Assembly (NCBI GenBank): GCA_903853285.1 | Contig: CAINTF010000218.1 | Location: forward strand, 1 to 20,765 | DNA from: an uncultured Acidimicrobium sp. | GTDB lineage: Bacteria; Actinomycetota; Acidimicrobiia; Acidimicrobiales; Ilumatobacteraceae | Length of the DNA: 20,765 nucleotides | Direction of reading: 5' to 3' | Shown: in pieces, positions 2,098-20,236 of the stretch | Layout of the letters: the number at the start of each line of letters is the position of its first letter | How positions within the stretch are numbered: position 1 is the stretch's first letter | Made by a program: the position numbers and the translations under genes | The notes under the pieces: model-generated | Told to the model about the DNA's origin: nothing | Databases searched by the model: none | What the model saw: the letters and a program-made list of their open reading frames with translations, nothing else

Positions 2098-2814
2098 TTA
2101 GCCACGCTCGAACATTGCAACAGAACGAAGCCGTCTTTCAATATGGTGCTCCATCGATTGCGTAGCCAAATGAGTAATTTCAGCAGTTGCGGGTGTGGCT
2201 GCTTGAGCGAGGGCAGAATTAAGTTGTCCTCCCAAAACCTGTTGTAAGAGCAAAATTGCGCTTTGGCTCATCGATACCCCCGTGCGACATTCTTTACACT
2301 GCACTCCGCCTTGAATCATGTCGAAAGCCACAAGAGGAGCATCAGAGTTGCAAGTGACGCAGCGATCCATCTGCGGACAGACACCTTCAGCAGCCAGGAG
2401 CTTCCAATAAAAAGCCGCAAGAACCAAAGGAGATGCATGTTGGGCAAGTGCATTCAGTGCGCCAACCAACATTCGATACAGATGCGGAGAAGGCTGCCGA
2501 TCATCGGCGATCATGTCGACCGCCTCCAGCATTGAGAGACCCTGAGTCAATCGGTCCAAGTCAGCATGCAACGGAGCCGAGGATTCGATCAGTTCAACCT
2601 GGTTGACGGTGTCGAGGTCTTTGCCCTTATACAACAACACTTCAACATGACTTAACACCTCAAGTCGCGCACCAATTTTTGATTTAGTTTTGCGTACACC
2701 TTTGGCGACGGCTCTGACCTTTCCGTGATCTTGGGTCATCATCACAATGATGCGGTCAGCCTCGCCAAGTTTGTACGTACGAAGCACCACACCTTTATCG
2801 CGATACTGGTTCAT
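2098..2814 (-). CDS. recO: DNA repair protein RecO
   Basis: RecO (238 residues) helps load RecA at single-stranded gaps in the RecFOR pathway and binds SSB and DNA. The N-terminal OB fold is recognised from YRDKGVVLRTYKLGEADRI and the VRAVAKGVRKTKSK segment. An all-helical middle follows. Then comes the zinc-finger pattern with Cys152-x2-Cys155 and Cys173-x2-Cys176, where the family usually carries CxxC...CxxC. Its ATG overlaps the stop codon of the upstream UppS-like gene (ATGA at 2811-2814), so the two are very likely translated in a coupled manner. recO next to a uppS-family gene is a common arrangement in actinobacteria; here the neighbour is the degenerate paralogue, not the catalytic one. 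Confidence 0.95.
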   Translation of the reverse strand: MNQYRDKGVVLRTYKLGEADRIIVMMTQDHGKVRAVAKGVRKTKSKIGARLEVLSHVEVLLYKGKDLDTVNQVELIESSAPLHADLDRLTQGLSMLEAVDMIADDRQPSPHLYRMLVGALNALAQHASPLVLAAFYWKLLAAEGVCPQMDRCVTCNSDAPLVAFDMIQGGVQCKECRTGVSMSQSAILLLQQVLGGQLNSALAQAATPATAEITHLATQSMEHHIERRLRSVAMFERG

Positions 2815-3440
2815 GAGTCAACACCACCAAATCGCCGATCTCTTCGCTGAAAGTCACTGATTGCCATCTGCACATGTTCAACATTGCACTTTCGCCAAGA
2901 CACATCCAAAAATACAAGCTCGCTATAGCTCAGTTCCCACATCAAGCTTGGAGGCATCTGGGTTGGAGAACCGAAAATCAAAATCAAATCGGGGTCAACA
3001 AAACCTGGCGGCAACATCACCGACCGCAGGGTTTCTTCACTAATTTCTTTTTCTTGACGAGTAGACGCACTTTCGCCAGTGAAACGATTCAATGCCTGTG
3101 CAAATCTCTCCCTGCCATCCGCGCACAGGTCAACAACGACTACCAAGCCATCCTTCGCAATGTACGAAATTCGATTTCCACTGCGTTGTCCTCCGCATGC
3201 AGATAAAACCGTTGCCGCAATCTCATCTTCAGAAAAACCAGAACCCGCATAAGGGCACACTGTCAACCAACGAGCACCAGATTCGTGTACTGAATCGACA
3301 AACGTGTCGAGCTGCTGTTTCCATTCGCCAACACTTGCCTGACCCCACTCTTGCAAGGTCCCCCCGCATACCAACACGTGCGACAGACCGCCTTCGCTAG
3401 AGGATTGGCCGTGAGTTTTACTTGTAGTCCTCTTGGCCAT
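2811..3440 (-). CDS. Degenerate UppS paralogue, NgBR/Nus1-like accessory subunit candidate
   Basis: 209 residues, clearly of the cis-prenyltransferase (UppS) fold but lacking the catalytic residues. HVLVCGGTLQEW (21-32) aligns with HVAIIMDGNGRW of E. coli UppS, with Gly27 in place of the catalytic Asp. The FSSENW loop is reduced to PYAGSG. DPDLILIFGSP (149-159) replaces the diphosphate-binding RTGGEHR segment. The C-terminal part is well conserved: MWELSYSELVFLDVSW keeps Glu174 (E. coli Glu213 position), and the protein ends QRRDRRFGGVDS. This is the pattern of eukaryotic NgBR/Nus1, which has DPDLVLKFG there and ends in an RLG motif. A longer reading from 3704 would overlap uppS without homology, so I start at the ATG at 3440. 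The AGAGGG abutting it is not a spaced ribosome site; TGC-GACAAT 6 nt upstream suggests leaderless transcription. Proposed role: non-catalytic partner of the divergent UppS. Confidence 0.85.
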   Translation of the reverse strand: MAKRTTSKTHGQSSSEGGLSHVLVCGGTLQEWGQASVGEWKQQLDTFVDSVHESGARWLTVCPYAGSGFSEDEIAATVLSACGGQRSGNRISYIAKDGLVVVVDLCADGRERFAQALNRFTGESASTRQEKEISEETLRSVMLPPGFVDPDLILIFGSPTQMPPSLMWELSYSELVFLDVSWRKCNVEHVQMAISDFQRRDRRFGGVDS

Positions 3441-3446
3441 CCCTCT

Positions 3447-3452
3447 ATTGTC
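3447..3452 (-). promoter_or_regulatory. Putative extended -10 of the UppS-like/recO operon
   Basis: GACAAT preceded by TGC (extended -10) lies 6 nt before the ATG at 3440. It sits in the very short gap between the two divergent cis-prenyltransferase genes. Confidence 0.5.
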
Positions 3453-3463
3453 GCATGAACCCT

Positions 3464-3469
3464 TACGAT
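3464..3469 (+). promoter_or_regulatory. Possible -10 element of uppS
   Basis: TACGAT fits TANNNT and lies 10 nt before the ATG at 3480. If it is used, transcription would begin downstream of the ATG at 3468, making 3480 the true start. It is less well placed than the other -10 candidates in this window. Confidence 0.35.
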
Positions 3470-4169
3470 GGTGCTTCCAATGAATTCGACTCCTTCCAAC
3501 CACGGCCCTCATGTCGCTTGCATCATGGACGGCAATGGGCGCTGGGCCAAACGCCGTGGATTGCCTCGCACCGCAGGGCATACCGCAGGCGAAGAAAATC
3601 TTGCCGAAGTGGTTCGTATTGCTTCCGCTCGAGGCGTTGCCTATCTCACAGTTTTTGGCTTCTCTACGGAGAACTGGGTGCGACCTAAAGCTGAAGTTCG
3701 ACACATTCTGTCACTACACAAAAGACTCTTCGGACGTATTGAAGAGCTCAATGCAAATAACGTGCGTATCAACTGGATCGGTCGACCATTCGACGAGCCA
3801 GGCGCGCGAACTCCTGCCTTCGTTCAACGTGCAATTCGTCAAGCTATTTCGGATACCGCTGCAAACACTGGAATGGTGCTGACTGTTGCTTTTGACTATG
3901 GCAGTCGGGCCGAGCTTCTGCGGGCTGCGCAACTGAGCATTAGCGAATCCATTAGCGGGATACCCATCACTACCCTCAATGTGCAATCGCATCTTTATAG
4001 TCCCGAATTACCTGATGTCGATTTATTGATTCGTACATCTGGCGAAAGTCGCATATCCAATTTCTTGCTGTGGCAGATCTCCAAAGCAAAGGTCTACTTC
4101 ACCGAACGCTCTTGGCCCGACCTTGATGCAAACGAAATAGATGCAGCATTGGCGTTAATCCGCCAGTGA
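3468..4169 (+). CDS. uppS: Undecaprenyl diphosphate synthase, catalytic-type, C-terminally short
   Basis: Condenses isopentenyl diphosphate units in cis to make the C55 lipid carrier for peptidoglycan. Conserved residues: CIMDGNGRWAKRRG with catalytic Asp21, GHTAG (37-41), FGFSTENWVRP (63-73), and DLLIRTSGESRISNFLLWQ with Arg189 and Arg195. Two features are abnormal. Lys208 (SKAKVYF) replaces the Mg-site Glu213 of E. coli (AYAELYF), and the protein stops at ALALIRQ, lacking the usual RERRFGG tail. Neither shifted frame beyond the stop encodes that tail, so a simple frameshift is not the cause. Human DHDDS is altered in the same two places. At 233 residues (229 from the alternative ATG at 3480, which is equally plausible) it is shorter than E. 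coli's 253. It is divergent from the NgBR-like gene and overlaps dinG by GTGA. Confidence 0.93.
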   Translation: MVLPMNSTPSNHGPHVACIMDGNGRWAKRRGLPRTAGHTAGEENLAEVVRIASARGVAYLTVFGFSTENWVRPKAEVRHILSLHKRLFGRIEELNANNVRINWIGRPFDEPGARTPAFVQRAIRQAISDTAANTGMVLTVAFDYGSRAELLRAAQLSISESISGIPITTLNVQSHLYSPELPDVDLLIRTSGESRISNFLLWQISKAKVYFTERSWPDLDANEIDAALALIRQ

Positions 4170-6061
4170 GTGATAAAGAGATCCAGCGCAAGACGCTTTC
4201 GCTCCTGCACACTGTCACTGCGGCGTTACCTCATGCCGAGGAACGACAAGGCCAAAATGAGATGGCTGTTGCGATCGCCCTCGCCGTCGACTCCAAACGG
4301 CACCTGATTGTTCAAGCAGGTACCGGAACCGGAAAGACTCTTGGTTATCTTGTTCCGCTCATCGCTTCCGGAAAGCGAGTTGTCGTCTCTACCTATACGA
4401 AAGCGTTGCAGGATCAGCTTGCTGCGAACGATCTGCCTTTGCTGTCTGATGTGCTGGGCAAGGAACTCAACCGTCATATCTCCTGGGCGGTACTCAAGGG
4501 GCGTAGTAACTACATCTGCGCTCAGCGAGTTGACGAAATCGCAAACCCGAAGCATTCGAAGCTTGACCTCGAAACCACTCCAGCGAAGGTCACCAAAGAA
4601 ATTGCTCAACTCACCGAATGGGCTGCACAAACAGAATCCGGCGATCAAGGTGACTTGACGTGGAGCCCAAGCGATCAAGCATGGCGCATGGTCAGTGTGG
4701 GCAGCGACGAATGCCCGGGCGCACAACGATGTCCCGCAGGATCACGGTGCTTTGCAGAGCGCGCTCGCGACAAGGCAGCAGATGCAGATGTCATCGTCGT
4801 GAACACACATATCTACGGACTACACATTGCAACCGGAGGCGCGCTTCTGCCTGAACATGAAGTTGTGGTCTTCGATGAAGCACATCAGCTAGAAGACGTC
4901 ATCAGTGCATCAGTCAGCACCGAAATTGGACCAGGTCGAGTCAATGCAGTTGCGGCGTCGCTGCGCGCAATCATTCGCGATGACGCTATGAGCGGATCAC
5001 TCAACCAAATCGCTCACGAGTTGCACACCCAACTAGCCCCGTTTGTCGACAAACGGCTCACCATGCCACTTCCCGACGGCATTCAGAACGGACTCATCGA
5101 TCTGCGCCTCAAAATTGACTCAGCCCTTGAGATGCTGCGAAGTATCAGCACAAAGGATGAATCGACCAAGCAACGAGCGCTACGCGCGCAAACCCTGTCG
5201 ACACGTCTGATCGATTCCATCGATATATCACTCATGGAGTTAAAGGGTCGGGTGGCGTTTGTGAGTGGCTCGAAAGACAGACCTGTTCTAGAGATTGCAC
5301 CACTCGACGTTGGTCCATCCTTGATAGAAAATGTTTGGAATCAACGCACCGCAATTCTCACCAGTGCCACTATTCCATTATCGCTCCCAAATCGAATTGG
5401 ACTCGCCGAAGATTCCGTAGATGTTATTGATGTAGGTAGTCCGTTCGATTACGAACAGAGCCTGCTCTACTGCGCCAAGCAACTTCCCGAACCAAATAGT
5501 CCTTTGCGAGACGAGGCTCTTCATAATGAGATAGAGCGTTTGATCATTGCAGCAGGCGGCAGAACGCTTGCACTCTTCACGACATACCGAGCAATGCACT
5601 TGGCCGCTGACGAAATGGCAAAGCGATTGCCTTTTGCCATTTTGCGTCAAGACGATTTGCCAAAAATGGCACTCATCAATGCCTTTGCAGCCGATGAATC
5701 AACATGTCTCTTTGCAACTGCAGGATTCTTCCAAGGGGTTGATGTCCCCGGACGCACATTGAGCCTTGTCATAATTGACAAAATTCCATTCCCGAGACCA
5801 GACGAACCTCTATTAAGTGCGAGGCGAGATGTGATCGGACGGTACTACTTCAACGAGATAGATATCCCACTTGCTGCCACACAACTAGCACAAGCATCAG
5901 GTCGTCTCATCCGTGCGCAATCAGATCGCGGAGTTGTAGCAATACTCGACCCACGGCTTGCAACGAAGGGCTACGGCAAAACCCTGGTTGCCACGTTGCC
6001 GCCAATGCCACGCACAGTCGATCTTGAAGAAGCAGAGAGTTTTCTACGCAGCCTTGCGTAA
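4166..6061 (+). CDS. dinG: DinG-family ATP-dependent DNA helicase (XPD-like, Fe-S)
   Basis: Superfamily 2 helicase of 631 residues with 5'-3' polarity expected from the family, acting in DNA repair and removal of DNA-RNA structures. Motif I is AGTGTGKT (51-58) and motif II is DEAH (237-240). The four cysteines typical of the Fe-S domain are Cys118, Cys183, Cys189 and Cys195, arranged as in XPD/DinG. Later motifs include FATAGFFQGVDVPG, VIIDKIPFPRPDEP and the motif VI segment QASGRLIRAQSDRG. Translation starts at GTG 4166, which overlaps the uppS stop codon in GTGA, so the two genes are coupled. No exonuclease domain is fused at the N terminus. The downstream response-regulator gene converges, with only 12 bp between the stop codons. 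Confidence 0.93.
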   Translation: MSDKEIQRKTLSLLHTVTAALPHAEERQGQNEMAVAIALAVDSKRHLIVQAGTGTGKTLGYLVPLIASGKRVVVSTYTKALQDQLAANDLPLLSDVLGKELNRHISWAVLKGRSNYICAQRVDEIANPKHSKLDLETTPAKVTKEIAQLTEWAAQTESGDQGDLTWSPSDQAWRMVSVGSDECPGAQRCPAGSRCFAERARDKAADADVIVVNTHIYGLHIATGGALLPEHEVVVFDEAHQLEDVISASVSTEIGPGRVNAVAASLRAIIRDDAMSGSLNQIAHELHTQLAPFVDKRLTMPLPDGIQNGLIDLRLKIDSALEMLRSISTKDESTKQRALRAQTLSTRLIDSIDISLMELKGRVAFVSGSKDRPVLEIAPLDVGPSLIENVWNQRTAILTSATIPLSLPNRIGLAEDSVDVIDVGSPFDYEQSLLYCAKQLPEPNSPLRDEALHNEIERLIIAAGGRTLALFTTYRAMHLAADEMAKRLPFAILRQDDLPKMALINAFAADESTCLFATAGFFQGVDVPGRTLSLVIIDKIPFPRPDEPLLSARRDVIGRYYFNEIDIPLAATQLAQASGRLIRAQSDRGVVAILDPRLATKGYGKTLVATLPPMPRTVDLEEAESFLRSLA

Positions 6062-10824: not shown

Positions 10825-11790
10825 TTAGCGATATTTCGCCATGATCTTGGCGAACTCATCCATTGTGTGTGTGCTTGGGTAATCAACACACCACGGAATG
10901 AACCCAGTGCAACCGACCTTGATGTATTGCTCAATCTTCTCGGCAACTTGTTCTGGTGTACCAACGATGTTGGATCGCTGCCATGTTTCGAACTGATCGC
11001 CACGACCACTCGCAATCTGAAATTCACGACACTCCTGTTCGGTGTCACGAATTAATATTTCACCCGAAATCGTCTTCCCAATTTCGTCGGCGTCTCGACC
11101 AACGTTGAGGCAATGACCCTTCAATATCTCAACCTTGCGTGCAAAGTCCTCTGGTGACCCACCAAAGTTGGAATAGTCAGCGTGCTGAGCAACAACTCGA
11201 AGCGTCGGCTGCTCGCCACCACCACCTACCCAAATTGGTGGATGTGGATTCTGCAAAGGTTTTGGATCGCAGTTAGCACGTGATGTTTGGTAATACTTTC
11301 CCTCATATGTCGCTTCTTCTTGCGACCACATCATCTTCACGATTTCCACAGTTTCGCGCAACATCCCAATGCGATCTTTAGGTACCGGAAACTGATAGCC
11401 GTAGCTCCTAAATTCGTTTTCGTACCAGCCTGCACCGATACCCCAGTCCAAGCGTCCACCCGAGATCACATCAAGCGTTGACGTGATCTTGGCAAGCAAC
11501 GCTGGTGGTCGATACAACGCACAACCCACCATCTGTCCAAGACGGATTCGGGTAGTCAATTGACTGATTGCGGCCATAACTGTCCAGCACTCAAATACAG
11601 CCTCGTGTGCCGGACGCGGGACGTTATGGAAATGGTCGTACACCCAAATCGAGTCAAAGCCGAGTTTTTCTGCACGGAGCGCAATATCTACTGAAGCTTG
11701 CCATTTTTCGGCTGCTGTTGGGATCTTTACTAACTCCATTTTCCAACCCTGAGGGATGAACACTCCAAACGTGATGTGTTGCTTTGTCAT
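10825..11790 (-). CDS. LLM-class (luciferase-like) F420-dependent oxidoreductase
   Basis: 321-residue TIM-barrel protein of the luciferase-like superfamily. In actinobacteria, proteins of this type mostly use coenzyme F420, though some members use FMN. Typical segments are ITFGVFIPQG at the N terminus, AEKLGFDSIWVYDHF, RIRLGQMV, LAKITSTLDVISGGRLDWGIGAGW, WVGGGGEQPTLRVVAQHADYSNF and VGTPEQVAEKIEQYIKVGCTGF. Read by eye it resembles the subfamily annotated as probable F420-dependent oxidoreductases of unknown substrate. Its ATG overlaps the stop codon of the acyl-CoA dehydrogenase gene (ATGA at 11787-11790). The two are therefore co-expressed and may act on the same substrate. Cofactor use is inferred from family and taxonomy. 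Confidence 0.9.
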   Translation of the reverse strand: MTKQHITFGVFIPQGWKMELVKIPTAAEKWQASVDIALRAEKLGFDSIWVYDHFHNVPRPAHEAVFECWTVMAAISQLTTRIRLGQMVGCALYRPPALLAKITSTLDVISGGRLDWGIGAGWYENEFRSYGYQFPVPKDRIGMLRETVEIVKMMWSQEEATYEGKYYQTSRANCDPKPLQNPHPPIWVGGGGEQPTLRVVAQHADYSNFGGSPEDFARKVEILKGHCLNVGRDADEIGKTISGEILIRDTEQECREFQIASGRGDQFETWQRSNIVGTPEQVAEKIEQYIKVGCTGFIPWCVDYPSTHTMDEFAKIMAKYR

Positions 11791-13007
11791 AATGGCAAAT
11801 CTCCAGTGGCTTTCTTTGTAGAACCATGATCTTTATATGCGGCAATTGTGCGTTGAGCGATTCGCATTTGGTGGATTTCATCAGCACCGTCTGCAAAGCG
11901 ACTCCATCGAGCTTGCTGCAACATTCCAGCAAGTGGCGTATCGGTTGAGTAGCCCAAAGCACCATGCACTTGAATTGCTCGGTCAACTATTCGCCACAAA
12001 CTATTTGCAACAAAGTGCTTGGCCATGGAGACTTCACTCGTAAATTCGAGTCCGTGTTCAATTTTGTATGCAGCGTGCAAGACCATGAGTTTGCATTGGT
12101 ACAACTCCATCGCTGAATCTGCGATCAACCACTGAATTCCCTGCTTCTCCGCCAAGATTGAACCATGTGAGTACCTGTCAAGTGAGCGTGCGACCATCAT
12201 GTCGAGCGCAGTTTCGGCTTGGCCGATCCAACGCATGCAATGCGCGAGACGAGCTGGACCTAATCGATACTGACCGAGCAAGTGACCCTGTCCACGGCCA
12301 CCAAGCATGCTGCTCGCCGGTACTCGCAAATCCTTGATCAAAATTTCGCAATGGTTGTGTCCACCAGACATCGTCTCTACATCACGTACGACATTCCATC
12401 CTTCGCTCGGGATGTCAACAATGAAACACGAGTTTGCGGCTTGAGGTAGATCTGGATCCTCTTCAGTTCGCGCAACTAATAATGCAAACTGTGCACCCCT
12501 TGCTCCAGAGATGAACCACTTGTGACCATTGATCACCCATTCGTCACCGTCTTGATACGCGAAAGTCTTAATCAGAGTTGGATCACTACCTGCGACTTCT
12601 GGTTCGGTCATCGCGAAACATGAGCGTGCGGTACCTTCGCACAACGGCCGCAGATATTTCTCTTTCTGCTCTGGTGTTGCCCAGTGCAACAGCGTGTGCT
12701 GGTTGCCTTCATCTGGAGCCTGAGCATTAAGCACGAAAGGTCCAATGCTGACCTTGGCCGCTTCTGCGGAGACGGCGGCCATCGCGGTTGGTCCAAGACC
12801 CATGCCGCCCCATTCTGCAGGCATATGTGGAAGCCACAATTTCCAATCTTCTCGCGCAACTTTTCGCAATTTCACAATTGTCTTGACAACCTGAGATCGA
12901 TCATGCTGATCAATTGATTCCCACTGCGGCCGCACCACCGTGTCCATAAACTCGCGAACCTGCATCCGAACTTTCTCGACTTCTGGCGGGAAGGAAAAAT
13001 CAATCAT
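11787..13007 (-). CDS. Acyl-CoA dehydrogenase family protein (ACAD10/11-like C-terminal pattern)
   Basis: Flavoprotein that oxidises acyl-CoA thioesters or a related substrate. From the ATG at 13007 it has 406 residues. Features: the N-terminal helical domain starting MIDFSFPPEVEKVRMQVREF, the flavin-binding region CFAMTEPEVAGSDPT followed by WVINGHKWFISGA, and the C-terminal helices with QVHGALGYSTDTPLAGM and RWSRFADGADEIHQMRIAQ. Where MCAD-type enzymes have the catalytic Tyr-Glu-Gly-Thr, this one has Ala-Asp-Gly-Ala, as in ACAD10/11-like proteins. The catalytic base may therefore be Asp or lie elsewhere. The frame is open up to 13079, but that extension overlaps the menG promoter and has no homology. 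CAAACT lies 6 nt before the chosen ATG. It forms an operon with the LLM oxidoreductase. Confidence 0.92.
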   Translation of the reverse strand: MIDFSFPPEVEKVRMQVREFMDTVVRPQWESIDQHDRSQVVKTIVKLRKVAREDWKLWLPHMPAEWGGMGLGPTAMAAVSAEAAKVSIGPFVLNAQAPDEGNQHTLLHWATPEQKEKYLRPLCEGTARSCFAMTEPEVAGSDPTLIKTFAYQDGDEWVINGHKWFISGARGAQFALLVARTEEDPDLPQAANSCFIVDIPSEGWNVVRDVETMSGGHNHCEILIKDLRVPASSMLGGRGQGHLLGQYRLGPARLAHCMRWIGQAETALDMMVARSLDRYSHGSILAEKQGIQWLIADSAMELYQCKLMVLHAAYKIEHGLEFTSEVSMAKHFVANSLWRIVDRAIQVHGALGYSTDTPLAGMLQQARWSRFADGADEIHQMRIAQRTIAAYKDHGSTKKATGDLPL

Positions 13008-13013
13008 CTTGCA

Positions 13014-13019
13014 AGTTTG
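13014..13019 (-). promoter_or_regulatory. Putative -10 element of the acyl-CoA dehydrogenase operon
   Basis: CAAACT (nAnnnT) lies 6 nt before the ATG at 13007. There is no TGn extension, so support is modest. Confidence 0.35.
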
Positions 13020-13058
13020 CCCGATCAAGACACATTGCCACGAGTCGGCTTCTGGTCG

Positions 13059-13064
13059 TAGCCT
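13059..13064 (+). promoter_or_regulatory. Putative -10 element of the menG-menF operon
   Basis: TAGCCT (TANNNT) lies 7 nt before the GTG at 13072. It has the same hexamer and spacing as the era promoter and supports the GTG as the start. Confidence 0.5.
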
Positions 13065-13071
13065 GAATACT

Positions 13072-13773
13072 GTGAACAATGCTTGGGACTCGGTCGACTT
13101 ACCCCAGGGTCAAGCCAAAGTACATGCCGTTCGGAGCATGTTTGATGCAATAGCCCCGCGCTACGACCTCGTCAATCGAATTATGACGTTTCGTCTCGAT
13201 GTGCGCTGGAGACGTAAAGCCATTCGCAGTCTTGGACTTGCCGCAAACAGCGTCATTCTCGATTTGGCTAGCGGTACTGGCGACATGTGCATCGATCTGC
13301 GAAAGTCTGGCTACCAGCCTCTTTCAATGGATCTCTCTTTAGGAATGCTGATCGCTGACCGAAGTCATGCCCCTCGCACGCAAACTGACATTTTGCAGTT
13401 GCCTTGTGCCAACGAATCCGTCGACGGGGTTACTTGTGGATTTGCGCTGCGAAATCTGCTCGACCTCAATACGTTCTTCGCGGAACTCTCCCGAGTTACG
13501 AAATCCGGTGGGCGCATTGCCTTGCTCGATGTAGGCATACCAACGAACCCACTCATCAAGTGGGGCAACAGCATTTACTTCGGCAAAATCGTTCCGCGAA
13601 TCGGTGGCTTGCTGTCCAACCGTGCCGCCTATAACTATCTTCCTAAAAGTGTCGCCTATCTTCCCTCGCCTGCCGCAATGGTTGAAATGTTGACTCGAAA
13701 TGGATTTACATCTGTTGAGCACCGACAGCTCTCTGGTGGTCTCACACAATTACTGCTCGCGACCAAGGCGTAA
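13072..13773 (+). CDS. menG: Demethylmenaquinone methyltransferase
   Basis: SAM-dependent C-methyltransferase of the UbiE/MenG family that converts demethylmenaquinone to menaquinone, the last step of the pathway. It has 233 residues from GTG 13072. Recognisable parts are VRSMFDAIAPRYDLVNRIMTF at the N terminus (read in pieces), the SAM motif I VILDLASGTGDM (60-71), DGVTCGFALRNLLDLN, the motif region SGGRIALLDVGIP, and a C-terminal YNYLPKSVAYLPSPAAMVEML, all typical of UbiE. An upstream ATG at 12940 is in frame, but that stretch overlaps the divergent acyl-CoA dehydrogenase and lacks homology. The GTG has a TAGCCT element 7 nt upstream and gives a normal length. menF follows after 2 nt. The chemistry cannot be separated from ubiquinone methylation by sequence alone, but the Men genes around it settle the role. 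Confidence 0.93.
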   Translation: MNNAWDSVDLPQGQAKVHAVRSMFDAIAPRYDLVNRIMTFRLDVRWRRKAIRSLGLAANSVILDLASGTGDMCIDLRKSGYQPLSMDLSLGMLIADRSHAPRTQTDILQLPCANESVDGVTCGFALRNLLDLNTFFAELSRVTKSGGRIALLDVGIPTNPLIKWGNSIYFGKIVPRIGGLLSNRAAYNYLPKSVAYLPSPAAMVEMLTRNGFTSVEHRQLSGGLTQLLLATKA

Positions 13774-13775
13774 CG

Positions 13776-15005
13776 ATGCGCGCTGTCACGCGTCTGCTTT
13801 CCGAGATTTCACCAACGTCCACAGCGGACGACATTGACCTCAATGCCTTTGCTGGCTCTGACGGAATGTTGTTCGTTCGAAACGGCGCCGGCTTTGCAAC
13901 CCGTGGCATTGCAGCACGAGTGGCGTCACAAGACATCAAAGAGTTTTTAGCAAGCATCCAAGTTATTGACTCTGTGAATGCACCTGGCAGTGGTCCAGTT
14001 GTCATCGGTGCTATTCCCTTTGATTCACAACAGCTACATGATTTCGTTCTCCCAACAATGCTGATCTGCAAATCAAACGACGGGCGTTGTTGGGTCACAA
14101 CAATTCACGAAAATGACCAATCTGATCCTGCCGAAGATTTTTTAGATCTCAGTCCTGTAGTTACTCCGGGTGCAACGTCATCGTCGTACACCGTCACACC
14201 TGGCGTCACGGTCGAGACATATCTCCACGCTGTGACTGCCGCTCGTGATGGCGTGCGCAATGGTTCCATTTCAAAGGCTGTGATTGCTCGCGATGTATTC
14301 GTCGCCAGTAGTCAACCCATCGATATCTATTCAGTGCTTCTTCGACTTCGTAACGTGTTTGGCTCGAGTTATCAATTTTCCGTAGATGGTTTCATTGGTG
14401 CTTCACCCGAATTACTCGTCTCCATCGTTGACGGTGAAGTATCAAGCCATCCATTGGCCGGTACAGCACCTCGCACTGGTGATCCAGCGACCGACGCCCA
14501 ACTAGCAAGTTCACTCCTTTCATCAACCAAGAATCAGATTGAGCATCGAATCGTTATAGATGCGGTCCACGACACATTGCTGCCTTGGTGTTCGTACCTC
14601 GACTGGGAGCCCGAGGCAAGCATTGTTACTGTTGCAAACGTGCAACATCTTGGCACCCATATGTCAGGAAGACTTTCCGAACCATTCCTTCATGTGCTTG
14701 ATGCCGTGTATGCGCTTTCGCCTACACCCGCACTCGGTGGTTTTCCGCGCGATCAAGCCCTACAGCTCATCAAAGAAGTCGAAGGCATGTCACGCGGACG
14801 GTACGGCGGAGCAGTTGGCTGGTGTGACAGCCGAGGAAACGGAGTTTGGGCTGTTGCAATTCGCTGTGCAGAGTTTTCAAACGACAATAAGACAGCTCGA
14901 TTATTTGCTGGTGGTGGGATTGTTGCCGATAGTGATCCGCTTTCTGAACTTGCTGAAACACAAGCAAAACTCCAAGCAATGCTTGCAGCGATTATCCGGC
15001 CCTAA
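13776..15005 (+). CDS. menF: Isochorismate synthase
   Basis: Chorismate-utilising enzyme that makes isochorismate, the first committed intermediate of menaquinone synthesis. It has 409 residues. The C-terminal chorismate-binding domain is clear: SISKAVIARDVFV, YQFSVDGFIGASPELLVS, HPLAGTAPR, NQIEHRIVIDAVHDTL, NVQHLGTHMSGRL, PALGGFPRDQAL, GRYGGAVGWCDSRGNGVWAVAIR and FAGGGIVADSDPLSE. The conserved HPLAGT and GAVG elements distinguish the family. EntC/DhbC for siderophores and salicylate synthases are the alternatives, but position directly after menG and opposite menD supports menF. The last 14 bp overlap the 3' end of the convergent menD gene, so the two mRNAs are complementary there. Confidence 0.93.
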   Translation: MRAVTRLLSEISPTSTADDIDLNAFAGSDGMLFVRNGAGFATRGIAARVASQDIKEFLASIQVIDSVNAPGSGPVVIGAIPFDSQQLHDFVLPTMLICKSNDGRCWVTTIHENDQSDPAEDFLDLSPVVTPGATSSSYTVTPGVTVETYLHAVTAARDGVRNGSISKAVIARDVFVASSQPIDIYSVLLRLRNVFGSSYQFSVDGFIGASPELLVSIVDGEVSSHPLAGTAPRTGDPATDAQLASSLLSSTKNQIEHRIVIDAVHDTLLPWCSYLDWEPEASIVTVANVQHLGTHMSGRLSEPFLHVLDAVYALSPTPALGGFPRDQALQLIKEVEGMSRGRYGGAVGWCDSRGNGVWAVAIRCAEFSNDNKTARLFAGGGIVADSDPLSELAETQAKLQAMLAAIIRP

Positions 15006-16716
15006 GAGCCTTCGCAACAGCGGCATAGACCGCATCGTGATCAACGACATTCTGCCCTCGATCAGTGTTCACAATGATTACTCTCGAACCCGACTGATTC
15101 AGTGCGTCCTGTAATTGTGCAACAGTGTTCGCAGTGATGCACGAGAGACCATGTGCTTCGACCAATTGACTAATGTCCACATCGTGTGGGGTACCAAATA
15201 ATTGTTCAAATCTTTGTGGGTCCAGAGTTGTCGACTGCGGCAAGAAGCTAAATATGCCTCCTCCTTTATTGTCAACAACCACGATTTTGAGATCAACTTC
15301 ACGTTGCATCAAATTGAGCAATCCGTTTGTGTCATGCAACAACGCAATGTCTCCAATCAATAACGCTGTCAATTGATTACTTTCTGCAGCAACACCAACC
15401 GCCGTAGACACCACGCCATCGATGCCATTAACACCACGATTGGAAAGAACTCGTACGCCACTCCTCGGAGCACTAAACCACTCCACATCGCGTACCGGCA
15501 TGCTGGATGAAAGCACGAGATTTGAATTTTTTGGTAACGCATCCGAAACTGTTCTGGCAACCAAAGGTTCCGTTAATGCGCTCGAGTCATTCCACATCGA
15601 ATCAAGAACAGCACTGCATATTGCTTGCAATTTTGCCCAGTCATTACTCCATGATGTTTCAGGCTTAGCCTGAACACTCGCGAAGAGATGCTCACAAACC
15701 GTTGATGCACGCGCAACTAAATGTTCCGAGACAATCCTGTCTGGATCAATCAATTGCATCGTTTTGCTTACAGCAAAATACGTGCAGTTGCTCTCTCGAA
15801 GCCAAGCGTTCACCACTTTCGAAACAGGTGGTTCACCAAAACGCAGAATGACCCTCGGAGTAAATGCTTGAGCGGTTGACGCATCCCGCAATAACACATC
15901 GGCATTGCTGATCACTTCTGCTCCACAACAATTGCTCTCATCAACCCGACATCCACTGCGACTATCGGCCAAGATTGGCCACTGCAACTTATGTGCCAAC
16001 TCGAGAACCATTCGCGGATTATCAATTCCATTTCCCGCAATAATGACTCCTCTTTCGAGGATACATACCTCTGACAATTTGCGAATCTGATCTTGCGTCA
16101 GCAATTCCTGATCATCAAGTGTGTGATCCAAGTTTGAACCGATCAGAGGAGGCAACTCTTCTGCAATGCCTACAAGCGGCTCCCTAAAGGGCAGGTTGAG
16201 GTGTACAGGTCCGGCATCAGTCTGCACAGCAGCATTTAACACTTCTTGTGCCAACACGCGCCAGCTATTGCGTTCAGCATCGTCAGCAACACCAGCGTCC
16301 ACAAAAAGACGCGTTGATGAACCATAGAGATTTTGTTGATCAATTGTTTGAGGTGCGCCAACTCCCTGCAACTCAGGAGGTCGATCTGCAGTACACACCA
16401 ACATTGGTACCGATGCATAGTGTGCTTCCACGACTGCAGGATGGAATTCAACTGCTGCAGTTCCAGAGGTACACAACAAAATCGCTGGCATCAACTTGCC
16501 GTTCTTACTCGACAATCCAATTCCGAGTGCTGCAAACGAAGCCGACCGCTCGTCATGGAAAATGTGCAACCGCAATTCACTTCGAGCCGCAATCGCCAGA
16601 GCCATCGGGGTGCTCCTCGAACCAGGAGCGACTACCGCATGCTCAACCCCACAGCGAATCCACTCGTCCACCAGCGTTGCGCAGAAGGTCGCTGTGATTG
16701 CAGAACTGCTCGTCAT
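14992..16716 (-). CDS. menD: SEPHCHC synthase
   Basis: Thiamine diphosphate enzyme that joins 2-oxoglutarate (as succinic semialdehyde) to isochorismate, giving SEPHCHC. The 574 residues match the family length. Signature parts are VAPGSRSTPMALAIA at the N terminus, HDERSASFAALGIGL with the ThDP-activating Glu region, LLCTSGTAAVEFHPAVVEA, VPMLVCTADRPPELQGVGAPQTIDQ, LSSSMPVRDVEWF, NRGVNGIDG, and the ThDP/Mg site LIGDIALLHDTNGLL. It starts at ATG 16716, only 19 bp from the divergent frnE start. The AGAGGGG abutting the ATG is too close for a ribosome site; TGC-CACGAT lies 7 nt upstream. The tail overlaps menF by 14 bp. Confidence 0.96.
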   Translation of the reverse strand: MTSSSAITATFCATLVDEWIRCGVEHAVVAPGSRSTPMALAIAARSELRLHIFHDERSASFAALGIGLSSKNGKLMPAILLCTSGTAAVEFHPAVVEAHYASVPMLVCTADRPPELQGVGAPQTIDQQNLYGSSTRLFVDAGVADDAERNSWRVLAQEVLNAAVQTDAGPVHLNLPFREPLVGIAEELPPLIGSNLDHTLDDQELLTQDQIRKLSEVCILERGVIIAGNGIDNPRMVLELAHKLQWPILADSRSGCRVDESNCCGAEVISNADVLLRDASTAQAFTPRVILRFGEPPVSKVVNAWLRESNCTYFAVSKTMQLIDPDRIVSEHLVARASTVCEHLFASVQAKPETSWSNDWAKLQAICSAVLDSMWNDSSALTEPLVARTVSDALPKNSNLVLSSSMPVRDVEWFSAPRSGVRVLSNRGVNGIDGVVSTAVGVAAESNQLTALLIGDIALLHDTNGLLNLMQREVDLKIVVVDNKGGGIFSFLPQSTTLDPQRFEQLFGTPHDVDISQLVEAHGLSCITANTVAQLQDALNQSGSRVIIVNTDRGQNVVDHDAVYAAVAKALRAG

Positions 16717-16722
16717 CCCCTC

Positions 16723-16728
16723 TATCGT
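16723..16728 (+). promoter_or_regulatory. Putative -10 element of the frnE-menH operon
   Basis: TATCGT (TANNNT) lies 7 nt before the ATG at 16736. It overlaps, by five base pairs, the element serving menD on the other strand. Confidence 0.5.
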
Positions 16729-16729
16729 G
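16724..16729 (-). promoter_or_regulatory. Putative extended -10 of menD
   Basis: CACGAT preceded by TGC lies 7 nt before the ATG at 16716. It is read from the complement of the frnE -10, making a shared bidirectional promoter. Confidence 0.45.
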
Positions 16730-16735
16730 GCACCT

Positions 16736-17392
16736 ATGCGCGTAGAAATCTTCTCTGACGTGGTTTGCCCCTGGTGTTACATCGGAAAACGCAGACTGGA
16801 TACGGCTGTGGCCAACCTTCGATCTCGTGGAGTTGAAGTAGATCTCGACATCTCCTACAAGCCTTATCAATTAGACCCCACAGCCCCTATCGGGCAGTCA
16901 ACTCCAGTATCAGAGGCCTACGCCAAGAAGTTCGGTGGTGCGGAAAAGGCTCAACAGATTCTCGCGCATGTGACAAACATCGCTGCTCAAGACGGCATCG
17001 TCTTCAACATGGACATCGCCCTGCGCGCAAACACACTCTTGGCACATCGACTACTCGTCATGGCCCAGCGCGATTACGGCAACGAATTACAGGCAAAGCT
17101 CAAAGAGCGAATCATGCAGTCGTACTTTACGGACGGTGAAGACATTGCAGATGTGAATGTTCTTTCGACATGCGCATCAGAGGTTGGCATATCACGTGAT
17201 GTAGCAATGACTTTTCTTCTCAGCGATGAATGCGTTGATGACGTGCAGGACTCGTTACAGATGGCTGCCGAAAACGGCATCACTGCCGTACCGACTTTCA
17301 TCTTCAACGATCAATGGTCAGTACCGGGTGCACAAGACGTAGAAATGTTTGAGCGAGTCATACAACGCCTCAGCGAACGCACAGTGTTATGA
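16736..17392 (+). CDS. frnE: DsbA-family oxidoreductase, FrnE type
   Basis: 218-residue thioredoxin-fold protein with the helical insertion of the DsbA/FrnE group. The N terminus MRVEIFSDVVCPWCYIGKRRL contains the CPWC redox motif (Cys11, Cys14). PYQLDPTAP is characteristic of FrnE-like proteins, and the cis-proline loop is ITAVPTFIFN near the C terminus. There is no signal peptide, so it should act in the cytosol, possibly as a disulfide oxidoreductase in stress defence. The upstream open frame from 16496 is antisense to menD and is rejected. menH starts in its stop codon (ATGA, 17389-17392), so a dithiol protein is translationally tied to a menaquinone gene. Whether they are functionally linked is unknown. 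Confidence 0.92.
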   Translation: MRVEIFSDVVCPWCYIGKRRLDTAVANLRSRGVEVDLDISYKPYQLDPTAPIGQSTPVSEAYAKKFGGAEKAQQILAHVTNIAAQDGIVFNMDIALRANTLLAHRLLVMAQRDYGNELQAKLKERIMQSYFTDGEDIADVNVLSTCASEVGISRDVAMTFLLSDECVDDVQDSLQMAAENGITAVPTFIFNDQWSVPGAQDVEMFERVIQRLSERTVL

Positions 17393-18156
17393 AACTCACG
17401 TACGACCTATTGGGCAACCAAGGTGCTCCACAAACGATTGCATTTCTCCATGGCTTCACACAAACTCGTCGTTCAATGCATGGTCTTATTTCCGAGATGA
17501 ACAATTTGTCTACTCTCTTCTCGGCGATTGCAGTTGATGCGCCACTACACGGAGATTCACAACAAGTTGCAGTAGATGTAGCGGGTGCAGCGGATGCATT
17601 GGTCGACACATGCGGTCCAGCGATTTATTTGGGTTACAGCATGGGAGCTCGCATGTGCCTTCATGCCGCGCTCCAACACCCATCCGAAGTCAAGGCTCTT
17701 GTTTTGATCAGTGGCACAGCCGGAATCATTGACCCAATTCAGCGACAGCATCGCAAAGACTCAGACAATGAGCTGGCCGATCATGTTGAGCAGATTGGCA
17801 CACATCAATTCATTGCCGAATGGCTTGCGAAACCGATGTTCGCATTACTTCCCGACAATCCGAAAGACATCGAACAGCGATGCACCAATTCGGCCGCATC
17901 ACTTGCTTCAAGTTTGCGCTTGTGCGGTACAGGAACCCAAGAAAGCTTGTGGGACAAATTGCCTTCACTTTCAATGCCCGTGTTGCTGATTGCTGGTGCC
18001 CACGACGAAGCATTCTGTCAACACGCGCGTCGAATGCAGGAACTTATTGGGGAAAATGCCTCTATCAAAATTGTGCAAGATGCGGGACACAGCGTTCATC
18101 TAGAACAACCAGTAGAAACAGCTGAGATTATATTGAACTGGTTAGCAACTCTTTAA
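17389..18156 (+). CDS. menH: SHCHC synthase (alpha/beta hydrolase)
   Basis: Alpha/beta hydrolase of 255 residues, assigned as MenH, which eliminates pyruvate from SEPHCHC to form SHCHC. The N-terminal FLHGFTQTRRSMHGL forms the oxyanion region, GYSMGAR (82-88) is the nucleophile elbow with Ser84, and the catalytic His is His234 in DAGHSVHLEQP. The GYSMG-A/G-R pattern and HGFTQT match MenH. The fold is generic, so the assignment rests partly on the surrounding men genes. It is coupled to frnE by a 4-bp overlap. Its TAA stop and the stop of the convergent menA are nested in one TTTAAA palindrome. Confidence 0.87.
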   Translation: MKLTYDLLGNQGAPQTIAFLHGFTQTRRSMHGLISEMNNLSTLFSAIAVDAPLHGDSQQVAVDVAGAADALVDTCGPAIYLGYSMGARMCLHAALQHPSEVKALVLISGTAGIIDPIQRQHRKDSDNELADHVEQIGTHQFIAEWLAKPMFALLPDNPKDIEQRCTNSAASLASSLRLCGTGTQESLWDKLPSLSMPVLLIAGAHDEAFCQHARRMQELIGENASIKIVQDAGHSVHLEQPVETAEIILNWLATL

Positions 18157-19043
18157 AGCAATAGCCCTAACGACAACAACAGTCCAGTTGCCATTTGCGT
18201 TTTGCCAGTTGTCGCGAGTACAGCAATAAGTTCGCGCCCACTTGCACCGCTTCGCACAATCCGAATCGCCGGAACGGCAACTACAAGTCCCAGTAATCCA
18301 ACTATTGATCCAATTCTCGATGTAGCACACAGCACTATTGCAACACCACACGCCACAAACAACAGGTTGTACAAAGTGCGTGTCTTTTTGTCGCCAAGCC
18401 GCACAGCCAAAGTAACTTTGCCGACTTCTGTATCGCCAGGTATATCGCGCAGGTTGTTGATTACAAGAAGCGCAACTGCCAGACAACCAACGGCTATCGA
18501 TGCAAAAAAGCTCAGCATTGTGATGTGCTGCGTAATCGCGAACATCGTGCCGCACGTGGCGACTAATCCAAAAAACACAAAGACGAACAGCTCACCAAGT
18601 CCCATATATCCATATGGTTTTGGTCCACCCGTATACAGCCATCCGGCGCCAATACAAGCCGCACCGACAACAACCAACCACAATGAAGTCGCAAGTGCAA
18701 TCACCAAACCGAATACTGCCGCCACGCCAAAGGCTATGAAAGCCGCGCGTTTCACCACTTGTGGGGCAACTAGACCTGAGCCAACTAGACGCAATGGCCC
18801 AACACGCTTTTCGTCAGTGCCTCGAACCCCATCTGAATAGTCGTTTGCATAGTTGACACCAACTTGCAATGCAAGGCTGACCACCAAAGCCAACAACGCG
18901 AATGTCCAATTCTTATCAACAGCACCTTCAAATGCTCCAGCACAAGCACTCCCCACCATGACTGGCATGATTGCCGCGGGAAGCGTGCGCAAACGGGCTC
19001 CGAGAATCCATAGCTGTACACCAGTCGGTTGCGAATTTGTCAT
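18153..19043 (-). CDS. menA: 1,4-dihydroxy-2-naphthoate polyprenyltransferase
   Basis: UbiA-superfamily integral membrane enzyme that attaches the isoprenoid tail to 1,4-dihydroxy-2-naphthoate, giving demethylmenaquinone. The 296 residues have about eight or nine hydrophobic helices. The first Asp-rich motif is NYANDYSDGVRGTD (64-77) and the second is NNLRDIPGDTEVGKVTLAVRLGD; both are typical of MenA rather than UbiA. The RLRTLPAAIMPVMVG N-terminal segment is also characteristic. It starts at ATG 19043 with AACACT 6 nt upstream, preceded by TGG, and no Shine-Dalgarno. It is divergent from menE (68 bp apart) and overlaps menH by 4 bp at its 3' end. Confidence 0.95.
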   Translation of the reverse strand: MTNSQPTGVQLWILGARLRTLPAAIMPVMVGSACAGAFEGAVDKNWTFALLALVVSLALQVGVNYANDYSDGVRGTDEKRVGPLRLVGSGLVAPQVVKRAAFIAFGVAAVFGLVIALATSLWLVVVGAACIGAGWLYTGGPKPYGYMGLGELFVFVFFGLVATCGTMFAITQHITMLSFFASIAVGCLAVALLVINNLRDIPGDTEVGKVTLAVRLGDKKTRTLYNLLFVACGVAIVLCATSRIGSIVGLLGLVVAVPAIRIVRSGASGRELIAVLATTGKTQMATGLLLSLGLLL

Positions 19044-19049
19044 ATCAAC

Positions 19050-19055
19050 AGTGTT
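19050..19055 (-). promoter_or_regulatory. Putative extended -10 of menA
   Basis: AACACT preceded by TGG lies 6 nt before the ATG at 19043, fitting the TGn-nAnnnT pattern seen at menD, the kinase gene and others. Confidence 0.4.
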
Positions 19056-19099
19056 CCATGCTTCACACCCGCAACAGATGACCCTTTAGTCGTCCGACC

Positions 19100-19105
19100 T
19101 ATCCT
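19100..19105 (+). promoter_or_regulatory. Putative -10 element of menE
   Basis: TATCCT (TANNNT) lies 6 nt before the ATG at 19112. There is no Shine-Dalgarno between them. Confidence 0.55.
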
Positions 19106-19111
19106 GTTTAT

Positions 19112-20236
19112 ATGGCTCGTCTCATCGCCTTTGACATGCCCGCGAGCCAAACTTTTGTCGACCTGGTGCGGCGCACGTGGTCCAACGGCGACGCCGTTTT
19201 GCCCATTGATCAACGTCTACGACCAGATGGCAAGAAGTTGTTGATAGACGCAATGGCCCCTTCGGAGGTGATTGACGCCAGTTTCACAAGTACATCACTC
19301 ACCAATGGAATCCCGATGCAAGACGGCGATTCTCTGGTTATTGCATCGAGCGGATCCACTGGCGATCCGAAAGGCATTGTGCATACTCATTCATCATTGC
19401 TCGCTGGCGCACGATCAAGCGCGAAACGGCTTGAACTGACCCCCAGCGATCACTGGCTTGTCTGTATTCCGGTTTCCCACGTTGGTGGTTTTTCGGTCAT
19501 ATCTCGGGCTCTGCATGTAGGTTCTGCAGTTACTCTGCATTCAACTTTTGATGCGGCATCGGTTCAAGAATCAGCAAGAAATGGCGTCACTCATACTTCA
19601 CTAGTCGCAACCGCTCTGTCACGCATTGACGCTTCCCTGTTTCAAACAATTTTACTTGGCGGGAGTAGCGCACCAGACAACTTGCCAGACAACGTCGTCA
19701 CAACATACGGAATGACCGAAACTGGTGGTGGAGTCGTATACGACGGAATGCCACTTGACGACGTCGAAATCAAGATCCTTGATAATGAAATACAGTTGCG
19801 ATGCCCAATGTTGATGCGCACATACCGCGACGAACGCACAATTCCATTCAATGACGGCTGGTACGCAACTGGCGACATGGGCGAACTCGACGTCAATGGC
19901 AAACTTTCCGTATTTGGAAGACGATCCGACATGATCATCACTGGTGGTGAAAATGTTTGGCCCGCTGTGGTTGAGAACGCGCTCACCTCCCACCCGAACA
20001 TCGCCCAATCGGTTGTGCGTGGAACACCAGATGCAACATGGGGCCAACGAGTTGTTGCCTATGTTGTCCTCAATGATCCGATTCGTGTGTCGGACGCGGC
20101 ATTGCTGTCCGAATTACGCGAGCATGTCAAACAAACGCTCCCGGCATTCTGTGCGCCTCAACAAATTGTCGTGCTCGCCGACCTTCCGAGAACAAGTCTC
20201 GGAAAAATTGATCTACTAGAACTACCCTCTCCTTAA
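19112..20236 (+). CDS. menE: o-succinylbenzoate--CoA ligase
   Basis: Acyl-adenylate-forming enzyme that activates o-succinylbenzoate with ATP and CoA. It has 374 residues, shorter than the roughly 450-480 of E. coli or Bacillus MenE but close to the short mycobacterial form; the N-terminal region is reduced. Motifs: the P-loop-like SSGSTGDPKG (79-88), CIPVSHVGGFSV, TYGMTETGGGVVYDG, DGWYATGDMGELD, GRRSDMIITGGENVWPAVVENAL, and the C-terminal SLGKIDL with the catalytic Lys. Substrate assignment uses the men context, since other AMP ligases share these motifs. The MFS gene begins within its stop codon (TAATG). Confidence 0.92.
   Translation: MARLIAFDMPASQTFVDLVRRTWSNGDAVLPIDQRLRPDGKKLLIDAMAPSEVIDASFTSTSLTNGIPMQDGDSLVIASSGSTGDPKGIVHTHSSLLAGARSSAKRLELTPSDHWLVCIPVSHVGGFSVISRALHVGSAVTLHSTFDAASVQESARNGVTHTSLVATALSRIDASLFQTILLGGSSAPDNLPDNVVTTYGMTETGGGVVYDGMPLDDVEIKILDNEIQLRCPMLMRTYRDERTIPFNDGWYATGDMGELDVNGKLSVFGRRSDMIITGGENVWPAVVENALTSHPNIAQSVVRGTPDATWGQRVVAYVVLNDPIRVSDAALLSELREHVKQTLPAFCAPQQIVVLADLPRTSLGKIDLLELPSP

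Follow-up and report, generated by a model that had tools for sequence, protein, structure and literature searches.

Introduction

The cis-prenyltransferase UppS makes the carrier lipid of the bacterial cell wall and is an essential, drug-targeted enzyme. Descriptions of the bacterial enzyme usually show a dimer of two identical chains. Each chain of a homodimer such as Escherichia coli IspU or Mycobacterium tuberculosis Rv2361c holds both the catalytic residues and a C-terminal RxG tail. A division into a catalytic chain and an inactive helper is known from humans, yeast, plants, and an archaeon. Here, we describe two divergent genes in a 20,765-nucleotide stretch of DNA (the window) from an uncultured Acidimicrobium sp. 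of the family Ilumatobacteraceae (contig CAINTF010000218.1). Unlike in the homodimers, the catalytic residues and the RxG tail lie on separate chains. The two genes very probably encode the subunits of one heteromeric cis-prenyltransferase, the organism's undecaprenyl (C50-55) diphosphate synthase, with the RxG tail of the partner completing the active site.

The human enzyme, DHDDS/NgBR, and yeast Rer2/Nus1 also combine a catalytic subunit with a non-catalytic subunit of UppS fold. In the human enzyme, the NgBR tail with its RxG motif crosses the interface and helps form both DHDDS substrate sites, while NgBR has no cavity of its own (PMC7573591). A similar crossing is proposed for the window pair. 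The RxG arginine of the M. tuberculosis homodimer likewise contributes from the opposite subunit (PMC6450523). The window pair differs from the human and yeast heteromers in being bacterial and divergently encoded, and its partner has no transmembrane-like stretch and sits in an ancestral uppS slot. Compared with DHDDS, the catalytic subunit has no room for a DHDDS-type C-terminal domain, and its product is presumably medium-chain.

One review assigns the homodimeric cis-prenyltransferases to bacteria and plants, and the heteromeric kind, with its long-chain products, to eukaryotes (PMC7839719). Two-subunit prenyl diphosphate synthases do occur in bacteria, as HexA/HexB and HepS/HepT (PMC7839719). 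Unlike the pair described here, these are trans-prenyltransferases with other products. Their fold is unrelated to that of cis-prenyltransferases. A reading of the window made earlier from the sequence alone (the sequence-only reading) had pointed to split enzymes in some archaea and knew of none described in bacteria. The first point holds for Methanosarcina mazei MM_0618/MM_1083, a prokaryotic heteromer with C45-50 products likely destined for a glycosyl carrier lipid, as described in PMC8131916. The window pair comes from a different domain of life and is likened to it by description only. As to the second point, we found no bacterial heteromeric cis-prenyltransferase among the papers listed in searches of the open literature, with most subscription papers outside the search.

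Active-site residues are divided between two chains

The plus-strand gene (3468..4169; alternative start at 3480) encodes a protein of 233 amino acids, which matches Pfam PF01255 over positions 1-208 of 219 with 221 bits. This is the catalytic subunit, a UppS without the C-terminal RxG tail. The minus-strand gene (2811..3440) encodes the non-catalytic UppS-fold partner of 209 amino acids, which matches only positions 112-219 of PF01255 (49 bits; cut-off 27). Its C-terminal tail with the RxG motif, conserved in 55 of 55 partners, is encoded at 2814..2849 of the minus strand by the codons for QRRDRRFGGVDS. By analogy with the human and M. tuberculosis enzymes, this tail, QRRDRRFGGVDS, is predicted to extend into the active site of the catalytic subunit. 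A divergent spacer of 27 bp (3441..3467, assigned to neither strand) separates the two start codons (ATG 3440 and ATG 3468); the gap becomes 39 bp with the plus start at 3480.

The sequence-only reading had placed two UppS-fold proteins head to head, and the coordinates agree with the 27 or 39 bp that it gave between their starts. It had assigned Asp21, FSTENW, and RTSGESR to the plus-strand protein, and to the minus-strand protein a Gly at the Asp position, IFGSP, and a C-terminal RRDRRFGG; we found all of these. Two features are new. The plus-strand protein stops short of the RxG tail that homodimeric UppS carries, and Y211 and E213 (E. coli numbering, used hereafter) are retained by the partner and not by the catalytic subunit.

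We then aligned distinct sequences, 61 catalytic and 55 partner, together with 14 full-length UppS and E. coli IspU. Of the 14, nine belong to other families of the order and four to the Ilumatobacteraceae; the last is that of G026, a distant relative. Near-complete genes were required and identical sequences were collapsed. Among the partial or interrupted genes left out are a catalytic gene (L021) and a partner gene (L060) at contig ends, and two partners with interrupted frames (L091, L095). Catalytic and full-length genes were separated by their score against a partner profile, and partners had to reach the end of that profile; the tail counts are therefore partly definitional. What is not definitional is that tail-less catalytic genes lie beside partners, that uninterrupted partners have the tail, and that the catalytic residues are invariant.

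All 61 catalytic subunits have D26, N28, R30, H43, S71, E73, N74, W75, R77, R194, E198, R200, and S202. None has Y211, and the G244 column is a gap in 59 of them and a residue other than Gly in the remaining two. The partners show the reverse. D26 is replaced by Gly in 55/55 and S202 by Pro in 54/55, and every partner keeps Y211, E213, R239, R241, R242, F243, G244, and G245. Wherever a partner and a complete catalytic gene occur at one family locus, the catalytic gene has no RxG tail, and no uninterrupted partner among the family loci lacks one. An assembly error or frameshift hiding the catalytic tail was considered and set aside, as the tail is absent at every one of those loci.

The same division appears across the conserved positions of the protein. 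Using 34 full-length UppS as reference (the 14 above, 19 from the phylum, and E. coli), we identified 54 positions with conservation of at least 94%. Catalytic subunits keep, and partners have lost, 31 of these. Eight are lost in the catalytic subunit and kept in the partner (G61, G147, L191, Y211, E213, R239, R241, and G244). The others are kept in both (5), lost in both (3), or intermediate (7). On the clear classes the partition gives a Fisher p of 5e-4, in a test whose positions are not independent and whose tail positions partly follow the grouping. Such complementary loss is what would be left by one active site divided between two different chains. The catalytic residues and RxG, which a homodimeric UppS has on the same chain, are here spread over two. 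One chain has the full catalytic residue set and no RxG, and the other has the UppS fold and the RxG motif without the catalytic residues. This division leads us to predict that Y211 and E213 act across the interface as RxG does. A search of the open literature gave no report on what E213 does in homodimeric UppS. NgBR presumably keeps a Glu at the equivalent position.

The pair recurs across the Ilumatobacteraceae

PF01255 and the partner profile were both run over the same 121 family genomes. The co-occurrence that would be expected of two subunits was found: the partner is present in 113 of the genomes, and 111 of those have the catalytic gene. Both exceptions (G066 and G071) have a contig end beside the partner. 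The 113 include one contig-end fragment (G066), one gene spread over two contigs (G081), and, in the draft assemblies G064 and G131, one interrupted frame each. Four genomes that are 77-81% complete (G042, G078, G094, and G126) have no match. The pair is divergent in 49 of 49 cases measured; four further pairs, of 53, could not be measured with the motif used. In one genome (G132; locus L096, 3107-13632) about 9 kb separates the two genes, and both are kept in the usual orientation beside dinG and recO.

The sequence-only reading had taken the pair for the organism's essential UppS, which another intact uppS would call into question. None was found by the PF01255 search alongside the pair in any of the 121 genomes. 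Three PF01255 matches occur only in G013, where one contig holds a complete catalytic gene and the edge of the partner's contig holds the first part of another, and in G141, where the catalytic gene is in two pieces. The single-contig genomes G049, G056, and G074 have exactly two matches, which are the pair. The source genome, in an assembly 82% complete, has no PF01255 match beyond the pair. An additional uppS elsewhere, in the source genome or the single-contig relatives, was thus discarded as a candidate.

The partner looks to be under purifying selection. Its ratio of nonsynonymous to synonymous substitution rates (Ka/Ks) is 0.03-0.08 in four of five comparisons with L062-L066 and saturated in the fifth; these ratios are rough because synonymous sites are near saturation throughout. 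Ka/Ks is low in both subunit genes, and 54 partner homologs share 16 invariant columns. With the closest relatives set aside, identity to the window copy is 31-54% for the partner and 61-76% for the catalytic subunit. A spurious minus-strand reading frame is ruled out by the recurrence in 113 of 121 genomes and the low Ka/Ks. Close partners also occur in five named relatives, Acidimicrobium sp. UBA3029 and metagenome-assembled genomes labelled Acidimicrobiaceae, Actinobacteria, or Actinomycetota. Some partner proteins are annotated by the Joint Genome Institute as 'undecaprenyl diphosphate synthase', a name that would mislead readers.

The partner profile, 196 positions long, was also searched against 298 genomes of the order and 396 of the phylum. 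Family genomes drawn into these sets (12 and 11, respectively) scored 149-271 bits over nearly the whole profile. Outside the family, among the matches listed, scores reached at most 105 bits in the order and 99.8 bits in the phylum; the number of candidates per genome was capped, and 15 of the 298 and 35 of the 396 genomes gave no match, so that single misses are possible. Most of these outside matches span the C-terminal half only (about 85-195 of 196), as expected for ordinary UppS. Longer ones exist, for example from position 29 in G398 and from 12 in G551 and G580; the one from G551 (L134) was inspected and is a full-length UppS. Thus no partner with family-level scores was found outside the family among the matches listed, in a search that did not address splits with an unrelated partner in other bacteria.

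Fold and origin of the two subunits

Both monomer models show the UppS fold. The AlphaFold2 model of the catalytic subunit has a predicted local distance difference test score of 90.7 and aligns as far as residue 238 of E. coli UppS. For the partner, the UppS fold comes from AlphaFold2 together with VIA. The partner profile also matches NUS1 chains over profile positions 35-192 (E 3.5e-8). The window partner has no transmembrane-like stretch; its highest 19-residue Kyte-Doolittle mean is 1.19 (residue 138) and its 30 N-terminal residues average -0.4. The N-terminal transmembrane segment of NgBR/Nus1 is thus not seen in the window protein.

In other families of the order, six of seven relatives (L099-L105) carry a full-length uppS that immediately precedes recO in the same orientation. 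The remaining one, G026, encodes a different UppS at another site. In the Ilumatobacteraceae, the slot before recO is taken by the partner; in the window, recO lies at 2098..2814 of the minus strand (PF11967/PF02565). The catalytic gene lies on the other side, faces away, and adjoins the gene for a DinG-type helicase (4166..6061, plus strand; PF13307). Because the partner occupies the ancestral uppS position, it most likely derives from the old UppS and has become a pseudoenzyme. Synteny carries this claim, since the support from gene trees is weak. In those trees both subunits are monophyletic with support 100 (23 of 23 for the catalytic subunit). In a tree without eukaryotic sequences, sixteen partners group with 10 UppS from the order, that of G048 included, and three from the phylum; this clade has support 51. 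The catalytic subunit sits on a long stem in an uncertain position, which fits a duplicated or an acquired origin alike.

The sequence-only reading had called the partner NgBR/Nus1-like. The likeness stands as far as the UppS fold, the lost catalytic residues, and the RxG tail go. Descent is another matter. Synteny, and weakly a tree, make the partner descend from the lineage's own uppS, so it is probably not an NgBR/Nus1 ortholog; the missing transmembrane-like stretch also speaks against orthology.

Two genera of the family depart from the pattern. Genus g27, represented by G048, shows the ancestral arrangement; its single full-length UppS is 71% identical to that of G032 from another family. 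In genus g39 (L145, L146, and L147), dinG and recO are adjacent with no uppS between them in three of three genomes. Two of these (G060 and G092) encode a full-length UppS of another kind at a different site; in the third, which is 81% complete, no UppS was found. A further genome with a single full-length UppS, G140, is 72% complete. The UppS of G060, G092, G140, and the distant G026 (L087, L093, L094, and L103) is of a different full-length type with the motif RTSSE..R.SN[F/Y]FPW, which suggests replacement by another UppS in those genomes. A three-gene species tree groups g27 with g39 (support 90). We had considered co-loss of the pair in g39 as evidence and dropped it, as this group may predate the split of uppS.

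It is fairly likely that this bacterial family independently re-invented the DHDDS/NgBR architecture. A second uppS-type gene would have settled next to the native copy, the UppS encoded at the recO slot would have become an RxG-donating pseudoenzyme, and the newcomer would be the sole catalytic subunit of an obligate heteromeric, medium-chain undecaprenyl diphosphate synthase. Heteromeric architecture would then be uncoupled from long-chain products and from membrane anchoring.

A candidate heteromeric synthase and its rivals

From sequence and by analogy, the pair is best read as a candidate obligate heteromeric undecaprenyl diphosphate synthase that would work like DHDDS/NgBR. The plus-strand subunit would bind the allylic primer, isopentenyl diphosphate, and Mg2+ and perform the chemistry. 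The minus-strand subunit, with no usable active site, would stand in for the second monomer of the UppS homodimer. Its RxG tail, with Y211 and E213 nearby, would insert across the interface and complete the active site of the catalytic subunit. The observations beneath this reading are the partition of residues, the family-wide pairing, the absence of another intact uppS from pair-bearing genomes, and the folds of the monomer models. From them we infer a physical complex of 1:1 stoichiometry, activity that depends on the partner, a trans role for Y211 and E213, and the length of the product. A medium-chain product is the default expectation, because Met prevails at the L137-equivalent chain-length position in catalytic subunits (57/61) as in full-length UppS (11/14). 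All four genomes searched (G000, G049, G056, and G074) have PF00953 members, presumably MraY/WecA-type polyprenyl-phosphate sugar-phosphate transferases, so the hosts presumably need undecaprenyl phosphate.

At the level of sequence and monomer fold, the heteromeric UppS proposed by the sequence-only reading is borne out with few exceptions. These exceptions and several other points weigh against it. E213 is retained in 5 of 61 catalytic subunits, and four of the 121 genomes (G048, G060, G092, and G140) have a single full-length UppS instead of the pair. The source genome is only 82% complete. The structure models are of single chains. The partner profile is closer to ordinary UppS (E 1.4e-22) than to NUS1 (3.5e-8), and by fold the partner resembles UppS at least as well as NUS1. 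As to the origin, approximately unbiased test values of 0.38-0.56 reject neither placement of g27 and g39, branching before or after the split. The catalytic subunit, finally, might work alone at some level. This is conceivable because human DHDDS without NgBR still forms a homodimer with weak activity, its kcat being lower by about 500-fold (PMC6921004). For the same reason, residual solo activity would not by itself refute a heteromer.

The DHDDS homodimer is also an argument for a plus-strand protein that is self-sufficient without RxG, with the minus-strand protein a separate regulator or adaptor away from the active site. The intact catalytic residues agree with this. The invariant residues of the 55 partners, however, include exactly those that the catalytic subunit lost (the RxG tail, Y211, and E213), and a truncated catalytic homodimer would hold no RxG tail at all. 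A general regulator would have no need of an invariant RRFGG tail, and the pairing of the partner with a tail-less catalytic gene is family-wide. We therefore judge this alternative unlikely.

Another possibility is that an unlinked enzyme makes undecaprenyl diphosphate and the pair another product, such as a short-chain Z-prenyl diphosphate. M. tuberculosis has a second, short-chain cis-prenyltransferase, Rv1086 (PMC6450523), and the incompleteness of the source genome leaves room for an unlinked gene. Against this, the pair is the sole PF01255 content of the three single-contig relatives, and the Met at the L137-equivalent position gives no sign of a shift to short products. This makes a different product very improbable. 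That the minus-strand protein is a decaying, functionless duplicate, as its lost catalytic residues and greater divergence might suggest, is scarcely credible, being already contradicted by its conservation (low Ka/Ks, 16 invariant columns, and retention in 113 of 121 genomes with interrupted frames in only two, both drafts).

If the heteromeric synthase is real, it is a family-wide bacterial heteromer with a soluble-looking partner, and thus a simple system for studying why cis-prenyltransferases turn heteromeric. In addition, nature would here have separated the cis-acting from the trans-acting residues of the active site. Sister families allow the ancestral state to be inferred, and Ilumatobacter coccineus, which is cultured and has a complete genome, is at hand.

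Neighbouring genes and other features of the window

The partner stop codon overlaps recO, which marks the ancestral uppS slot, by four bases (ATGA, 2811-2814). The catalytic-subunit stop codon overlaps the dinG-type gene in the same way (GTGA, 4166-4169). Because each subunit gene overlaps its downstream gene by four bases, each is probably translationally coupled to its own neighbour, recO or dinG, despite the common 27-bp spacer.

Further along, positions 12940-20236 hold a menaquinone cluster with a MenG/UbiE-type methyltransferase, an isochorismate synthase, MenD, a MenH-like hydrolase, MenA, and a MenE-like ligase. At least one model cut-off is exceeded by each of MenD, MenA, the isochorismate synthase, and the methyltransferase; the MenH-like and MenE-like proteins fall below theirs. 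An F420-dependent LLM-class oxidoreductase of the TIGR03560 family, above its model cut-off, is encoded at 10825-11790.

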